DNA of 64,000 nt from Gossypium raimondii. Lineage: Eukaryota > Streptophyta > Magnoliopsida > Malvales > Malvaceae. The stretch lies in NCBI RefSeq assembly GCF_025698545.1, contig NC_068576.1:51370390-51434389 (forward strand), in the 5' to 3' direction. The notes beneath the pieces are model-generated. The model saw only the letters and a list, made by a program, of their open reading frames with translations, did no database searches and had not been told where the DNA came from. This document shows positions 49,887 to 58,330 of the stretch, piece by piece. Within the stretch, counting starts at the first letter, position 1; every line of letters starts with the position of its first letter. Both the position numbers and the translations under genes were made by a program.

Positions 49887-51485
49887 TTAATGTGCATTCA
49901 GGTTAACAATAAAATCCTTGAAAGCATCCAAAGAAACAGCTGAGCTCGCTGGGAAACCCTGCTGAAATTTAGTGCTAAGCATCACAGCTTGCGTTTTAAT
50001 GTCTTCGTTTCCCATTAGCCTCTCAATCCCTTCAGCAATATCATCCTTCTTGATATTCTGTTGTGCCAGATTATCGGAAATCATGCACCCCACTTTGAGA
50101 TGATTCACTACCAATTTGGCATTGGAGTGCTGGTCACCCCTAATAGGCCATGCCAATAATGGCACCCCACGTCCGATTGCTTCCACCGTAGAATTCCATC
50201 CACAATGTGATAGAAACCCACCCGTCGATGCATGGCTTAATATTAACAACTGAGGTGCCCATCCGTGTATGATCAATCCTCTTTTACCGACCTTTTGGTC
50301 CAAACCATGTGGGAAGTAACCCTCTTCTTCAAAGACTACATCATTGGAACCAGGTTGGTTCCCTAAGAACTGAGGTGGGCCAGGTGGTGGACCTGGTCGG
50401 CCCGACCCATGTTGGTTCCCTAAGAACTGAGGTGGGCCAGGTGGTGGACCTGGTCGGCCCGACCCATGTTGGATCACCCAAATAAATGGCCTGTTCGAGG
50501 CTTCTAATGCATCAGCCAATTGCTGGAACTGTTGTTTGGTGGGAGCAACTTCAGTACCGAAAGACACGTATAGCACTGATCCATGTGGCTTTGAATCTAA
50601 CCATCCCATCACTTGATCTTCCGTAACATTAGATTGTTTGTTGGCTCGGATTTCACGATCGTGGAGCAAGGAATCGGATGATTTCCAAAACTGTTGGGGC
50701 AATAGGGGCCCAACACCCCAAACTGGTTTACCAATTTGGAGCCTTAAATAGTCAAGAAATGGGCCTTCAAGCTCATGGCAACTATTCAGCATCAATGCGA
50801 CTGAGTCCTTGGCAGTTTCCATCCATTGTGGCTGTCCACCTGGTTGGGGTGGTCCCATTTTCGGTGGTGGATGTCCAAGAGGAAACCCGTCCGCTGCTGG
50901 CGGTGGTGGTGGTCCTGGAGGCCCACGTGGAAACCCGAAGCCCCCAAGCTGGGGAGGAGGTGGTCCAGGTGGTGGGCCTTGTTTAAGATCGGAATCTGTC
51001 AAAGCCATTTCTTCAGGTAACCCAGGAAGCAAAATTGTCTCTCCAGGCTCGATATCTACCACGCGAGCCTTCCACATGGCGAACTCCAGAGCTGCTGAAC
51101 ACGCACCCGAGGTGAAAAACGCAATTGTTGGAATCTTAAGCTTCTTGAAAATGTCTGCTGTCCAATCCATCATATTATCTATTACGGCACAGGCAGGTTG
51201 GGAGGTATTCTCCAGCAGACTGGCAATGCCCTGAGCTAAATCTGAGTGATGATGATGGGGGCCGGAACTGAGCTCTGGTGGAGTAGGCGATGAAGAGGGT
51301 ATTTGGGCAACCTGAATGAGAGGATGATCATGGAAGGAAGAGGGTATAGAAGAAGAGAGATTGGAGGAAATGATGAGAGTAGCTTTGAAATTGCGAGAGG
51401 CTATGTGCTTGCACAGTTCCATGGATGGGAGGAGATGGCCTTGCCCAAAGAACGGAATCACCCATATCTGGCTTTCGCTCGACAT
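49887..51485 (-). CDS. UDP-glycosyltransferase (GT1) with two proline-rich insertions, 532 aa
   Basis: Plant family-1 glycosyltransferase that moves sugar from UDP-sugar to a small acceptor in the cytosol. Single exon. The N-terminal GQGHLLP carries the catalytic His17, with a candidate partner Asp at ~103 (VIDNMMDW). The PSPG box spans 409-452, starts WAPQ, has HCGWNS and ends with Gln452, which usually favours UDP-glucose. The usual length is ~460-490; the excess comes from two Pro/Gly-rich inserts. Insert 1 (~169-220; GPPPGPPPPQLGGFGFPRGP) lies between the N-terminal acceptor-binding strands. Insert 2 (340-377) is two exact copies of HGSGRPGPPPGPPQFLGNQ, between the WVIQ strand and the FPHGLDQKVGKRGL loop. 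The subfamily is uncertain and so is the acceptor. The frame is open and the core motifs are intact. Confidence 0.9.
   Translation of the reverse strand: MSSESQIWVIPFFGQGHLLPSMELCKHIASRNFKATLIISSNLSSSIPSSFHDHPLIQVAQIPSSSPTPPELSSGPHHHHSDLAQGIASLLENTSQPACAVIDNMMDWTADIFKKLKIPTIAFFTSGACSAALEFAMWKARVVDIEPGETILLPGLPEEMALTDSDLKQGPPPGPPPPQLGGFGFPRGPPGPPPPPAADGFPLGHPPPKMGPPQPGGQPQWMETAKDSVALMLNSCHELEGPFLDYLRLQIGKPVWGVGPLLPQQFWKSSDSLLHDREIRANKQSNVTEDQVMGWLDSKPHGSVLYVSFGTEVAPTKQQFQQLADALEASNRPFIWVIQHGSGRPGPPPGPPQFLGNQHGSGRPGPPPGPPQFLGNQPGSNDVVFEEEGYFPHGLDQKVGKRGLIIHGWAPQLLILSHASTGGFLSHCGWNSTVEAIGRGVPLLAWPIRGDQHSNAKLVVNHLKVGCMISDNLAQQNIKKDDIAEGIERLMGNEDIKTQAVMLSTKFQQGFPASSAVSLDAFKDFIVNLNAH
50355..50468 (-). 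repeat. Perfect in-frame 57-bp tandem duplication in the UGT gene
   Basis: 50355-50411 and 50412-50468 are identical, each encoding 19 residues of the Pro/Gly-rich insert 2. With no differences at all it must be recent, and it keeps the reading frame. Confidence 0.95.
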
Positions 51486-53232
51486 TCTTGTTGAAATGAA
51501 ACAGCTTTGGCTTGGTGGTTTTTCTCAATATCCAAACACGATTGATTCACCCAATTTATAGAGCGGGAAAAGGTAGGAATAGGATGAGATGAAGACTTAA
51601 AGGTTAAGGTTTTCACTGGTAGGTAGTCAAGGAAAGAGGATTGGACTTGTAGTTATGAAAAGTGAAGAGAACCAAATACAAACAAGTCATCGTTAATGAT
51701 GGACAATCTGGAACTTTCCGTGATACTGGATTTGTCCAATGAAGAAAGTTCAATTAAAGTAAGGGTCTATGAAGCACCGGGAAACCTCCTCTTTCCAGTG
51801 TCATATCGGTGCCCGACACGGACACACCACCGACACGGCTGGATACGTATCAGATCAAAAAAAAAAAACCAAATTGAACACAGTCACAGAAACGGAAAAA
51901 AAGAAACAGAAGAGAGAAGAAATACAAGGAAAGATGGGGAAGAAAAGAAACTGAAATGAAAAAATTGTGGAGAAATGGAAAGGGGCATGAAGCTGAAAAT
52001 TTTGGGCTGCTCATTATTTATAATTATTAAAGTTCTTTTTGGTACAAAATTATTAAAGTAAGCAAATATTATGATAAATATATATAATGTTTGTCTAATT
52101 TATTTATTTATTTGATTAAAATTTTAATTTTTACATAAAAAGATTAGTTTAATTATAAATAAATAAAATTATTAATAATTTCTTCTAGAAAAGAAACATT
52201 ATCATGTTATTATTGTCATGTACACTATACTCGTATTCTAATTTTTTTTTTTTAAATTATCATATCACTATATTCGTGCTTCATTAAGTAAAAATGAGAG
52301 ATCTTTTTTTGAAACAGTAAAAATGAGAGATCTATAGAATAGTAAGAGGGCCAGAAATGCTAGGGTAAGCAAAGCATAGACTGGGAATTTCAGCAGCCCT
52401 TGAATTGCATGGATCACAGTCAACAAACCTGAGGATGAGATTTGATAAATGTGGCTATTGTCGACCAAGACACGATTAAAGCAACAGATGATCCAGGAGT
52501 TTGTGAAGAATGAAATTAATAGAATTTATAAAAATATTAAAAGGTAAATCTGTCATTATATTATAGTTAAAGAAAAGGTTACTGTCATTATTTCATTTAT
52601 TATGATAAACCAAACAGTTTAATGATAGTGCGAGATCAGTTTGAAAATAGAATTGTCGGATTTAATTATAATTTAAATGTTTCGTTCAATTTTTTATGTT
52701 GAATTTTAGAGTATCTAAAATGATTTACTCTTGTCACAACAAAAGGGTATGCTAAAGCTTTAATTTAAACAGGTTGCTTGAATGATTTATTCTTGTCACA
52801 ACAAAAAGGTATGCTAAAGCTTTAATTTGAACAGGTTGCTTGAAGGAGATCAATACTACTCAAAATAGCTATTTGGGATATTAAGCAGATGTTCACTATG
52901 AAGAGAAATTAAGTTGATTGTTTAACTAAAATGTTTTCTATTGAGATTGATGATATGCTGAGAGTAACACGTGTGCATAAGGAATTGATTTAGCAAGACA
53001 AAGCTGCTGGTACTTTTGTTATCTCATTTTTTATTCACCAAAAAATCTGTCCGACAGAAGTTGCTCTTTCTTCCTCGTTATATGGACACTAATGTGACAT
53101 TGTTGTGCGATACCAAGTGCCTTTCGTGTGTGTTTTGACTTTTGATCATCTTCTGTTGAAGTTGAAGAGTTTTTTAAGAAAAAAAATCATGAAAACATGC
53201 GGTTTCCATTTACAGCACTAACAAACTTGTAG
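51486..53232. other. Intergenic between UGT and PHL11-like genes
   Basis: UGT promoter to about 51700. At about 51795-51850 the GC-rich ATCGGTGCCCGACACGGACA-type word is a common plant repeat fragment. A 62-bp tandem repeat lies at 52719-52842. From 52850 to 53010 a stretch with many part-frames may be old retroelement debris. No gene. Confidence 0.45.
52719..52842. repeat. 62-bp tandem repeat, two copies
   Basis: 52719-52780 and 52781-52842 share AATGATTTA(C/T)TCTTGTCAC, AACAAAA(G/A)GGTATGCTAAAG and ACAGGTTGCTTG, with three differences. Confidence 0.9.
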
Positions 53233-54731
53233 CTATGTCTGGTCTTTTAAGTCAAATGCAGTGGAATCTCCTTCAACTTCAAGCTTAACATCTTTGCTGT
53301 TTTCTCTCCGTCTCCCTCCATAATTCTGAAAAGCAGAGCAGTTGGCCTTGTTTAAAACGCTGAAGTTTGTTTCTTCCTCACCATTCCCTTCGCAATAATT
53401 TATATCAATCGAGACTCTCTTTTGGGCTTTCTCTAATATTGCTTGCAAGTACTTCCCTTGTGCATCTATTCTCATCTGCAGTTTCTTCTCTACCTACAGT
53501 AAATACAAATTACGAGCTTGAATAGCAAAATTCGCCAACTGACAGAATATACTACTGTTTTTCTCTTAAAGGGTAAATTAACCTCAAGTTGCTCTTGCAA
53601 CGTCTGTTGTACTTCTAGCTGATTCTTCAATGCTTCTGCCACTGGGATTTGTCTGTTTCATTTGCATATTCAGTGCACTTTTGACAGACCCAAAAACGAA
53701 AAACAGTCTGAAAAGATGATATCCTAATTTGATTCTCAATTTCTAGCCGCTGTAAAGTCTGATGTAACCAGTGAATACTCAAGCAGAAGCAGAGGTTCTG
53801 ATTACGAAGCAGAAATGATAAATAGAGTTTGCGAAGTACCTTTGCTCACTGTCAGCTCTTGGTGAATTGGTGATGATAGTCCCTGAAAAATGATTGCTAC
53901 ATTGTACATATGAACTCCCTAAATTAAGGAATAGCAGCCATCACCACAACAACCAACTTATCACCCTTTTAAGAAATATTTGTATATTTCTAATCAACCA
54001 ACTTACCACCATTTACTTTGTTTAGGTCTACTGCATTTTGTTTCCGTGTCTGCTGTCCTAGTCTGTATTTCTATAAAATAAGCAAAATCACCACAGTGCA
54101 ATGTTTAAAAAAATAATTGAAAAGCAAAAGGGAAGCATGCTTGAAAGCATTAATGGCATTGTCCTATGCTATTTACCTGTAAATGGCTCTTCAAATGGTA
54201 GAGTGTTAAGCCCTTCATGCCCATCAACCTTAGGACGGACTTTGGAGTTGCTTCTGAAAGCAGAATTTCACAATAACATCAGACTACAATGTAAAAACTA
54301 TGCCAAGGTGATATTTCAATATACTTATATCATTTCATTAATAATAAAAAAATAGAATTACAATTTAGTACAAGAAGAAGATTCTACTTAACGAAAACCA
54401 GAGTGTTTTTCTACTATAAAAATTTTGCTAATAACTCATACACGAGTGCCTTATTTGTTTCATATTGTCTATAACCTGCTTCTTGTTGCACCGTATATGA
54501 AAGAAATTGAAAGATATGTATCTAATTGCACAAAATAGTAGAAACAGCGTAAAGAGGTAGAGAAGACTAACTGTCAGGGCCACCAAGTTTAGTTACGGCA
54601 TCGACAAATCGGTCGTGAAGATCAGCCGTCCATCTCAGTCTCGGCTTCGGGTCTCTGCTCATCACTACCTCATTTTCGTACCAATAGTTCCCTTCTCCAC
54701 CACCGCCTCCGCCATAGTTTAATCTCTCCAT
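53233..54731 (-). CDS. PHL11: MYB-CC (GARP/PHR1-type) transcription factor, PHL11-like, 6 exons
   Basis: Nuclear DNA-binding protein of the PHR1-like family. Exons on the minus strand: 54731-54572, 54253-54177, 54070-54007, 53883-53841, 53652-53583 and 53493-53233. They join in phase to 224 residues. The start [20 protein letters not shown] is followed by the SHAQKYF-type single MYB repeat at ~28-84 ([35 protein letters not shown]). A MYB-CC coiled coil is at ~125-165 ([23 protein letters not shown]). The C-terminus is acidic. None of these exons is long, so the protein is easily missed by simple ORF finding. PHL11 is the best name because At5g45580 (PHL11) sits next to the MOB1/EDR2-type genes in Arabidopsis; other small PHL members remain possible. 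Confidence 0.88.
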
Positions 54732-55787
54732 CTCATCAAATTCTCTCCTTAAAACTGAAAGGGAGTTGATTTTCCAAATGTCAAATAGGATTCTTTTGAG
54801 AATGAGAATTGTAAACAGAGTTTTTGCTGCTTCAACTTCATATAGATTAGCAGAGTATTTTTATTTTTGATTTACTCAGAAATGGACAAAGAATTTTTAT
54901 ATCTTAACCCCAGAACATGCAGAGCAAAGCTCGGCGACGAATCTTAAAAGCAAACAAACATGATTTACATTTACAACAAAACAAACGCGGCATAATAATT
55001 TTCTCCCACTTCTCCGGTCTACGTTTACGTTAGGCGTTCCACCGTTGATTTTCCTAGTTTGATGATCCAACGGTTATTTGAGAGACAATAAGAAGTGGAT
55101 GCAGCTTGGAGCGAGACGTAGCAAATTGGTAAAAAGGGTTCGTGACGGTTCCACGTAAGTGCCAGCGTGTAATATTCGGTGGCAAAAGAGAAGAATGGAA
55201 TATTCAATGAGTCACGTGGCGGGCCCACAGACGCAAGCGTCACTCAGGTTACATCGTCGTCTTTCCACATGGCCTGGGCCGGCAAGGAAGGCACGTGTCA
55301 TATTAACCGTCAATAACGGGGGACTCAATATTCGCAATGGCTCGACCCCAACATGGAGGTAGGGTGCAATGCCAGTAAAAAAAACCAAAAAGGTGCCCAA
55401 CGAATTAATTAATACAAATTTAATAGTATTTATTTATTTTAGAGTTTTTATGACGTGCTAGTATATATTTCATTGTTGAGGTAAATGTTTCTCATCTTAT
55501 CCATGGTTGTAGGTTTGGATATAGAGTAGTTTTAAAACTTGTGGTTACTGTATATCTTTTTAATGAGTCTACTAAACACAAAATATTAATTATTGAACTC
55601 GCCTTAATAAATACTTTGAACAACAACAAAAAAAATTTATTATTAGCCAAATACTAGTGTATGTCTAAATGGTCCTTAGGGAATGAAGACTAAACCTTTT
55701 AGATTGGTCTATTAAAGATTTGCAAGTGGTAAACATGTGTTATAAATTGATAACATGTCAAGTTGGGTTTAATTAGTTCAATTTTTG
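54732..55787. other. Promoter region of the PHL11-like gene and intergenic DNA
   Basis: About 54732-54960 is likely the leader and core promoter of the PHL11-like gene. 55120-55330 is unusually GC-rich for this window and carries several ACGT elements. The rest is AT-rich with no gene. Confidence 0.5.
55147..55300. promoter_or_regulatory. Cluster of ACGT-core (G-box/ABRE-like) motifs
   Basis: CCACGTAAG (~55151), TCACGTGGC (~55212) and GCACGTGTCA (~55292) occur within 150 bp, about 420-560 bp upstream of the PHL11-like start. Such CACGTG boxes bind bZIP/bHLH factors. Whether they act on this gene is inference. Confidence 0.45.
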
Positions 55788-55795
55788 TTCACAAG

Positions 55796-56362
55796 TAGAC
55801 CTATTCATGAGCCAAGCATTCTCCCAAGCCCAAAGGTCCGCTTGAAATTCAGAAAGGTTTTAACAAAAATATTAGGCTTGAGCAAAAAAAATAGGGCCGA
55901 TTAAAATATGAGTTGAGCTTGGGCTTGAACATTCAATGCCCGAGCTCAGCTCGACCCGATCAATTTTAAGTTTATAATATTTTATATTATGTTATTTTTA
56001 TATATTATGTAATTTAAAACATATTAAAAAATAAACTAATACTAAATAATATAATACTACTTTAATGTAAACATTAAAAAAATGTTAAGATTGACTATAT
56101 AAAAATTTTCAATAAATAAAAAATGTTTAAAAGTATTAATTATTAAAATAAAACAATATAAATATATATTTTTTAAATTTAAAAAATAATATGGGCAGGC
56201 CTAAAATGGGCTTAGACGAATTTTTTGCAAATATGGACGAGTTTGGACAAAATTTTAGGCCTAGATTTTAGGTCGGGCCGGACTTAGGAAAACATAAAAT
56301 ATATTAACATCATGCTTAGGCCCGACATAAACCTGACCTAGCCCGGCCCATGAACACCTCTA
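55796..56362. mobile_element. hAT-type MITE with perfect 8-bp target duplication
   Basis: Left end TAGACCTATTCATGAGCC and right end GGCCCATGAACACCTCTA are inverted. Both flanks read TTCACAAG (55788-55795 and 56363-56370). The interior has AGCTCGACCCG and TTTTAGGTCGGGCC words and a very AT-rich middle. 567 bp, no coding sequence. Confidence 0.88.
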
Positions 56363-56446
56363 TTCACAAGTATAATTAATTATTAATTATTATTTTATCA
56401 TATAAAATTGCTTTATATATAAAGTTACTGAAATTAATAAAATTAT

Positions 56447-57430
56447 GGGTAAATTACACAAACAGTCACTCAACTTTGGGGTAGCTAACAAAACAGTCAC
56501 CTAGGTTTTATTTCAGTCACTCAACTTTTAAAAAATAACAAAACAGTCACTAACGTTATAAGAAAGTGACAAAACAGTCACTGATTAACAGTTTCCGTTA
56601 GTGTCTTAACGGGACCGCTGATGTGGCAAGTTAACTTGCCACGTTGGATGTCCACAGTGAAACCCACCCAAATTAAAAAGAAATTGAAAAAAACCCCTAA
56701 TAACAGAGAAGAGAAGAAGAAAAAGAAGAAGAATGCATCGAATGATTTGCTAAGGTTTGAAATTTATACTTATAGGCGGCATTCGACACCGGTGCCATGG
56801 TTACAAAAGGGACAACTGAAAACGGTATCAAGCTTATCCATTCGCTTCTTAGGAGTAAACTTTGCTCTTAATTTCCTCTTTCCCATCCTTAAATCCCTTC
56901 AACACATCAAATTACAACCAAAATCAGCATGAAATTTTCCAGAATTTCGCAACAAATTTAAAGTTCTTACTAAAAATCAAATTCAAATTTCAAACCCTAG
57001 AAAATCATTTGATGCTTTCTTTTTAAAGATAAATAATTAGGTTAAGCAGCAAGAAAAATCTATTTTCTTAAATTTTCTTTCTCCGGAAGAAAAACACAGC
57101 AAAAAAATTGGGTATTTTCTTCTTTTTCTTCTTCTTATTCTCTATTATTAGGGTTTTTTTTTTAATTTCTTCTTAAATTTGGTGGATTTCCACTGTAGAC
57201 ATCCACGTCCAATTTGGCAAGTTAACTAGCCACATCAGCTAGTTAACTTGCCACATCCACGGTCCTGTTAAGACACTAACGAAAACTATTAATCAGTGAC
57301 TGTTTTGTCACTTTTTTATAATGTTGGTGTCTATTTTGTTATTTTTTAAAAGTTGAGTGACTGAAATGAAACCTAGGTGACTGCTTTGTTAGCTACCCCA
57401 AAGTTAAGTGACTGTTGGTGTAATTTACCT
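56447..57430. mobile_element. Pack-MULE: Mutator-like element carrying an ELOF1 gene piece
   Basis: Terminal inverted repeats of about 290 bp (56447-~56735 and ~57117-57430) start GGGTAAATTACAC / AGGTAAATTACAC and are ~90% identical. They flank about 380 bp of single-copy DNA. Target duplication is a perfect 9 bp, TAAAATTAT (56438-56446 and 57431-57439), the Mutator hallmark. The unique middle includes, on the minus strand, the first 37 codons of transcription elongation factor 1 (56886 down to 56776). No transposase is present, so this is a gene-capturing non-autonomous element. The arms contain 'AACAGTCACTCAACTTT' words shared with the intron element at 25572. Confidence 0.92.
56776..56886 (-). 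pseudogene. ELOF1: Captured 5' fragment of ELOF1 (transcription elongation factor 1 homologue)
   Basis: The minus-strand frame from the ATG at 56886 reads MGKRKLRAKFTPKKRMDKLD, then TVFSCPFCNHGTGVECR. This matches the universally conserved start of Elf1/ELOF1 (basic tail, then the first zinc-ribbon pair Cys25 and Cys28). Full proteins of ~85-90 residues continue with a second CxxC, which is absent here: after Arg37 there is one more codon and a stop. The 5' side up to ~57116 may be captured leader sequence. Few changes from the conserved protein are visible (Leu6, Phe10, Thr11, Gly33), so capture is not very old. Confidence 0.88.
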
Positions 57431-57439
57431 TAAAATTAT

Positions 57440-58330
57440 ACAAAAAAAACTATTTTTTAATTGAAAAAAAAATAAATGAACTAAATTGATTCAACTGTTA
57501 GAATTGAATTCTACTCGTTTAGTTGTTTTTAATATTTAATTTGATTTTTTGTTAAAAAATTAAAATATTGTTTAACAACCATATTTTTTTTTAAATTCAA
57601 TCTAAACATCAATGCAGTATGCACAAAATATACTAAACATTTTAAAAATCATATTATATGTATTGTTAATACACAAGTCTCGTACACTATCATTGAATTA
57701 TATTTAATCACTTCATTAATTAACAAAATAATGAAGTACCTATACATAAATATCCCTAAATTTATTTAAATTGGAAAATTGATATCCATTCAGGTTTGGG
57801 CCGGGCTCGACTAAAAATTCAGACCATTTATTAGGCCCGGGCCGGGTCCAGCCCGAAAAATGGGCCTAAAATTTTACCCAAGTTCGAGCCAGATAAAAAT
57901 GCTAAAACCCGAGCCCGACCTGTATTAATTTTTTATATTATTTTATATAATTTTTAAATATATATAATACATCAAAAATATTAAAAACATCAAAATAAAT
58001 ATTTCCCAACAAATTAAAAATAAAATTTAAAATATATGTAGACTTAAATAACACTAAGATAAATGCAACTTAACAATCAAATGCCTCTAAAATAATAACA
58101 AAATTAACAATAAAATAAGTTTTATACAATATCCAAACAATAACAACAAAATAGTAGCAACATAATAGTAAAACGGTAGCAAAAGAGGGAGAAAACAACA
58201 AGAAAATAACAATTAAAAACAAAAAAAGAGAGTAGATTTTTTTGTCCTTCAGTTAATTCGGACCGGGCCGAGCTCGGGCAAAAAATACCTTACTCGAGGC
58301 CCGATCCGTTTTTTAAACGGGCCTTATTTT
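57440..58330. other. Intergenic AT-rich DNA with a second GGGCC-type element
   Basis: After the Pack-MULE the DNA is AT-rich to about 57790. From about 57796 to 58411 there is a decayed element with GC-rich ends (GGTTTGGGCCGGGCTCG at left, GCCGGGCCAAGTC at right), related in style to the hAT MITE at 55796. Its target duplication could not be identified. No gene. Confidence 0.45.

Follow-up and report, generated by a model that had tools for sequence, protein, structure and literature searches.

Mutator-like elements (MULEs) are flanked by target site duplications (TSDs) of 8-11 bp, according to the available part of one account (PMC6446971), and Pack-MULEs, in which such elements carry fragments of host genes, number more than 3000 in rice in the accessible text of two reports (PMC8903248, PMC4858842). 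Tomato PM-ZIBP, as far as its description is available (PMC3310237), combines MULE ends, a TSD of about 9 bp, an internal host-gene fragment and copies with different TSDs; PM-ZIBP-1 is 944 bp long and has the TSD TTTTAAATT. MULEs with extra terminal repeats are described in the same text. For animal Pack-TIRs, the accessible sections of PMC8277862 present gap filling or template switching as the route by which filler from elsewhere is acquired, with microhomology at the breakpoints and later transposed copies. We found no report of ELOF1 in a Pack-MULE in the open PMC literature, and no title on cotton Pack-MULEs among the matches listed there.

Here we analyze a cotton (Gossypium raimondii) element located in a 64,000-nucleotide stretch of DNA (C12:51370390-51434389, hereafter the window; positions without a contig name refer to it), using searches of the 750.8-Mb genome. 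We conclude with high confidence that the element is a Pack-MULE.

Results

Structure of the element and of the captured exon

The whole element occupies positions 56447-57430 (no strand assigned) and was delimited by its paired ends and the flanking 9-bp TSD. The initial annotation had described a 984-bp element with long inverted repeats and a perfect 9-bp target duplication, and both features were recovered: TAAAATTAT stands at 56438-56446 on the left and at 57431-57439 on the right (read from the sequence and with a script; unstranded), and the ungapped cores of the left (56448-56639, plus strand) and right (57238-57429, minus strand) terminal inverted repeats form arms of 192 nt each that are 92% complementary. 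Gapped homology extends inward from these cores to about 56730 and about 57117, respectively. The element starts with GGGTAAATTACAC and finishes with GTGTAATTTACCT, the two ends differing slightly. Nearly all of the 984 bp is accounted for by the terminal repeats, a captured ELOF1 piece and an inverted piece of the leader of its parent gene, and an Rfam scan of positions 56000-58000 gave no match above the gathering score.

The captured piece of ELOF1, a gene for an RNA polymerase II elongation factor, lies on the minus strand at 56759-57107. It consists of exon 1, preceded by 221 nt of leader or upstream sequence and followed by the first 11-16 nt of intron 1. Its coding part (56776-56886, minus strand) spans the first 37 codons, including the CPFC motif, and translates from 56886 to 56776 as MGKRKLRAKFTPKKRMDKLDTVFSCPFCNHGTGVECR, followed by one extra codon and then a stop. 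Pfam Zn_ribbon_Elf1 matches this exon with E 4.7e-9 (36.7 bits, cut-off 29.8, model positions 1-37 of 79), and phmmer retrieved 11 distinct solved chains at E <= 0.01, 10 of them named elongation factor 1 and the eleventh a hypothetical UPF0222 protein. The earlier identification of the first 37 ELOF1 codons with the first zinc pair is thus borne out by the Pfam match and CPFC, with the correction that three of the 37 codons are altered relative to the parent. The piece ends ahead of the second zinc-ligand pair, as had been stated, with the stop lying one codon past codon 37, and the window copy cannot encode the whole zinc ribbon. The initial annotation gave neither the strand of the exon, which is minus, nor the 37-40-nt inverted leader piece; apart from these points and the copy number of the middle (below), its facts were right. 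At the position of the former splice donor of intron 1 (56772-56773, minus strand), the window copy has AT where, according to the alignment and sequences, the parent and two other copies of the element have GT.

Parent gene, copies and breakpoints

A genome search with 56736-57116, in which six first-look candidates were scored, gave nine matches as a lower bound, the window itself included. Two of them, at C1:48.71 Mb (93%) and C12:6.81 Mb (92%), extend across the whole query, so that the middle of the element, previously called unique, has two more copies in the genome. The alignment to an ELOF1 locus that had been set in advance as a check gave 92% identity to C6:59644359-59644713 over query positions 24-372 and did not refute the proposed capture. 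Weaker matches were found at C6:42.14 Mb (76%, query 24-323) and C1:5.71 Mb (85%, 111 nt), and the three further matches are short (30-40 nt), inverted and part of the same loci. A search with ELOF1 motifs located three ELOF1-coding stretches at each of C6:59.64, C6:42.14 and C1:5.71 Mb, and because these stand in order the three loci look like genes. The captured leader matches closely only the C6:59.64 gene (92% over 355 columns, 92.1% before rounding, compared to 76% over 311 for C6:42.14), and across the captured part the window copy agrees with that gene at 94.5% of the 327 sites compared. Judged from these alignments, the parent of the captured piece is the ELOF1 gene at C6:59.64 Mb (L011).

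The two other ELOF1-carrying copies, at C1:48708444-48709406 and C12:6806993-6808070, have inner junctions identical to those of the window copy, and their TSDs are TTTAAAAA (8 bp) and TTCTATTAA (9 bp), respectively. Since the three copies share the same inner junctions and have different TSDs, there was one capture, with transposition afterwards. The C12:6.81 copy (L040:1501-2578) additionally holds a partial terminal repeat inside one end. Whole-element distances are 0.088 between the window and C1 copies and 0.116 and 0.119 for the other two pairs. Eight sites of the captured part differ from the parent in all three copies, and the three pairings of copies have 2, 2 and 1 sites in common, a distribution that favours no particular branching order. 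At plant substitution rates of roughly 3.5e-9 to 7e-9 per site per year, the window and C1 copies would, as a rough guess, have split some 6-13 million years ago.

The captured piece starts 221 nt 5' of the ATG in the window copy, which corresponds to about 227 nt in the parent. Its other limit lies 11-16 nt inside intron 1, a value that depends on how the switch to the adjoining sequence is drawn. Next to it lies the 37-nt inverted piece of the parent's leader (56729-56765, plus strand), which is 94.6% identical to the opposite strand of L011:2452-2488 and pairs with 56985-57024 in an inverted pair of 40 nt that is 88% complementary. At the intron-side switch the parent has GTAAGTATAAACTTC, in contrast to GTAAGTATAAATTTCAAACCTTAGCAAATCATTCGATG in the C1 and C12:6.81 copies and, except at the first base, in the window copy; the later part of GTAAGTATAAATTTCAAACCTTAGCAAATCATTCGATG is the parent's own leader, reversed (L011:2452-2488), and AAA is common to both sources at the switch. 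The inverted leader piece continues into terminal-repeat sequence that is rich in TTCTT. The parent region L011:2300-2800 is free of inverted repeats of at least 12 nt, so the switch arose within the element. We infer that template switching in repair synthesis made the inverted piece, the AAA match itself being too short as proof, and the gap-filling model, in the part of its description that is available (PMC8277862), agrees with such switching.

Coding changes in the captured exon

Compared to the parent exon, the window copy carries four changes in three codons (S6L, P10F and A11T), the C1 copy three changes, and the C12:6.81 copy two changes, one of them common to the window copy, plus a one-base deletion that shifts the frame. 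Over the three copies, the distinct coding substitutions amount to eight nonsynonymous and no synonymous ones, the direction of one of them being uncertain, since G33S in the C1 copy is the state of the C6:42.14 gene. Along the same 37 codons, the C6:59.64 and C6:42.14 genes differ by eight silent changes and one altering change (Fisher p 0.0004 for this gene pair against the copies with their 0 silent and 8 altering changes), and the C6:59.64 and C1:5.71 genes by 13 silent changes and one altering change. By a rough estimate, neutral decay alone would give zero silent changes about one time in ten, eight substitutions being few. In both the window copy and the C1 copy, the exon frame is still uninterrupted for 38 codons. 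On these counts the captured exon seems to have decayed since capture with no sign of selection, although the sites are few and weak constraint may remain, and we infer that its function has probably been lost.

The terminal-repeat family

The end pattern of the family, allowing up to 3 mismatches in 30 bases, occurs 271 times in forward and 275 times in reverse orientation (546 ends), whereas the reversed control of the pattern occurs 0 times. From 60 loci (L023-L082, several overlapping), which comprise the best matches to the terminal inverted repeat and the first listed exact matches and are not a random sample, we obtained 27 end pairings and kept 25, leaving out two alternative inner pairings, in L054 and L082. 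The 9-bp TSD is perfect in 18 of these 25 elements, has one mismatch in four and two mismatches in three; with a one-base boundary shift allowed, perfect matches number 18/25 in the family versus 3/600 among cross-paired flanks.

The interiors of many family elements are mutually unrelated. Among 19 open frames, selected for their length and by inspection in 16 of the 22 elements without ELOF1, five scored above the Pfam cut-off: fragments of a PPR protein (L034:1501-2831), a Na/Ca exchanger (L075:1500-3012), an F-box protein (L082:46-1723), a fibrillin (L052:194-1754) and a phosphatase N-terminal domain (L041:28-1751). Vps35 (L065) and Helicase_C (L029) scored under the cut-off, and the remaining frames of the 19 gave no Pfam match or chance-level ones only. 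Matches to two bacterial families, PspB and Bac_export_2, were also under the cut-off and were put down to chance. The exchanger fragment recurs elsewhere at nearly whole length in four places (92-95%), in two pieces in a fifth (93%) and at 82% in a sixth; the PPR fragment recurs in one place at 94% and in another in two pieces at 89-91%. The family captures gene pieces repeatedly and looks like a serial carrier of gene fragments.

A 7.6-kb element, L086 (L086:118-7763, C5:30868817-30876462), has related ends and the 9-bp TSD ATTATAATA. Its left end matches at 82% over 203 nt, its right end at 83% over only 52 nt plus a 35-nt piece at 94%. A MULE transposase domain, PF10551, scores 28.2 bits in a split frame (cut-off 27.6), and PF03108 scores below its cut-off. 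L086 belongs to a related subfamily, not to the same one, and is a candidate for a relative of the element that supplied the transposase. In the Pfam search for MULE domains, 150 of 2055 candidates were scored, and four long stretches between family ends were examined. L084 has an N-terminal transposase piece under the cut-off and no clear TSD. L083:84-4790 (C1:34.93 Mb) holds, in 4.7 kb between two family ends, a 292-codon open frame of PPR repeats, and L085:91-7241 (C2:36.09 Mb) holds Ty1/copia-like frames (RVT_2) between two family ends, with an outer 9-bp repeat, TTTAAGTTT.

Surroundings in the window

The nearest recognised same-strand gene downstream of the element encodes a MYB-CC type factor (PF14379 above cut-off at 53233-53493; a weak Myb match at 54567-54860 is below cut-off), and its candidate ATG is at 54731, some 1.7 kb away. 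Because the old splice donor is changed in the window copy, a fusion transcript made through it is unlikely there. Further away, at 49887-51524 on the minus strand, a glucosyltransferase-like frame (PF00201) is interrupted in frame by proline/glycine-rich repeats, and the same region contains 2.2 repeats of a 57-bp unit (50350-50472).

Discussion

All structural features of the class that we examined are present in the 984-bp element. Its TSD is perfect and of MULE length, its terminal inverted repeats are long, and its ends are kin, via the related subfamily of L086, to those of an element with a transposase domain. The element is non-autonomous, without a transposase of its own; it contains a host-gene fragment whose parent lies elsewhere; and it moved after capture, as three copies with three TSDs and the same junctions document. 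The Pack-MULE assignment of the initial annotation is therefore upheld. Constraint on the captured coding part, expected of a functional Pack-MULE, was not detected among the few sites available (0 silent, 8 altering, one frameshift).

We propose that a non-autonomous Mutator-like element took up a copy of the 5' part of ELOF1 between its ends and later moved as one unit. The most likely start would be an internal break in an element with these ends, from which repair synthesis would have invaded ELOF1 at C6:59.64 Mb and duplicated roughly 350 bp spanning the leader, exon 1 and the first part of intron 1. At the short AAA match, synthesis would have changed templates and used the opposite strand of that leader for 37 nt, before the copied strand was joined again to the other terminal repeat within the pyrimidine-rich stretch of that repeat. 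The copies would then have been moved to at least three loci by a MULE transposase, presumably acting in trans. We consider this account of capture and transposition, including decay without visible selection, to be very probable.

The high similarity of the captured part to the parent would also be expected if a processed or segmental ELOF1 duplicate merely happened to lie between two unrelated inverted repeats. The piece, however, includes upstream sequence and the start of intron 1, and hence is no plain mRNA copy; the same content rules out a retrocopy of ELOF1. The recurrence of the same ends and inner junctions at three loci with differing TSDs refutes a chance arrangement, to which we assign virtually no probability. 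A different question is whether the captured element became a functional gene, encoding a putative basic peptide from the 38-codon frame or donating its exon to a downstream gene. Two of the copies (window and C1) keep the frame open and the MYB-CC gene is a candidate fusion partner on the same strand, but purifying selection was not seen, the window copy has lost the old splice donor and the C12:6.81 copy bears a one-base deletion. These changes leave the basic nuclear peptide suggested earlier unsupported; a selected peptide is disfavoured by the substitution pattern, and a functional gene of either kind is highly improbable.

The putative small RNAs against ELOF1 that had also been suggested earlier could come from a hairpin locus, in which the terminal repeats and the inverted leader piece would fold back. 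The minus-strand RNA of 56726-57024 is predicted to fold at -79.1 kcal/mol (z -3.4, with 1 of 200 shuffles as low), and exact runs of 26, 22, 43 and 82 nt are shared with the parent. A folding excess is nevertheless expected of any inverted repeat, and the inverted piece is exact to the parent over just 18 nt in the window copy, 17 nt in the C1 copy and 24 nt in the C12 copy. We regard such a locus as unlikely, and it is similarly a long shot that template switching at capture made an ELOF1-leader fold-back whose copies may be, or may have been, a source of small RNAs tuning the C6:59.64 ELOF1 gene. Capture and transposition, followed by decay, remains our preferred reading.

The ELOF1 element is a further example of known gene-fragment capture, clear but ordinary. 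The capture is a clean one: its parent is known, its breakpoints can be read and it has left three descendants. The terminal-repeat family can be used to study how MULEs acquire gene pieces, above all the inverted leader piece at one junction.

Compared to tomato PM-ZIBP, with which it shares the MULE ends, the TSD length, an internal host-gene fragment and copies with different TSDs, the cotton element captured another gene and has an inverted leader piece adjoining the exon; the two are likened by structure, not by kinship of their terminal repeats (PMC3310237, available part). The additional terminal-repeat piece of the C12:6.81 copy resembles the MULEs with extra terminal repeats in that text, although the duplicate is partial and absent from the window copy. 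Animal Pack-TIRs, as far as the accessible description goes (PMC8277862), likewise have filler from elsewhere, breakpoint microhomology and later transposed copies, whereas the cotton element is a plant MULE and fits fork stalling as well as gap filling.
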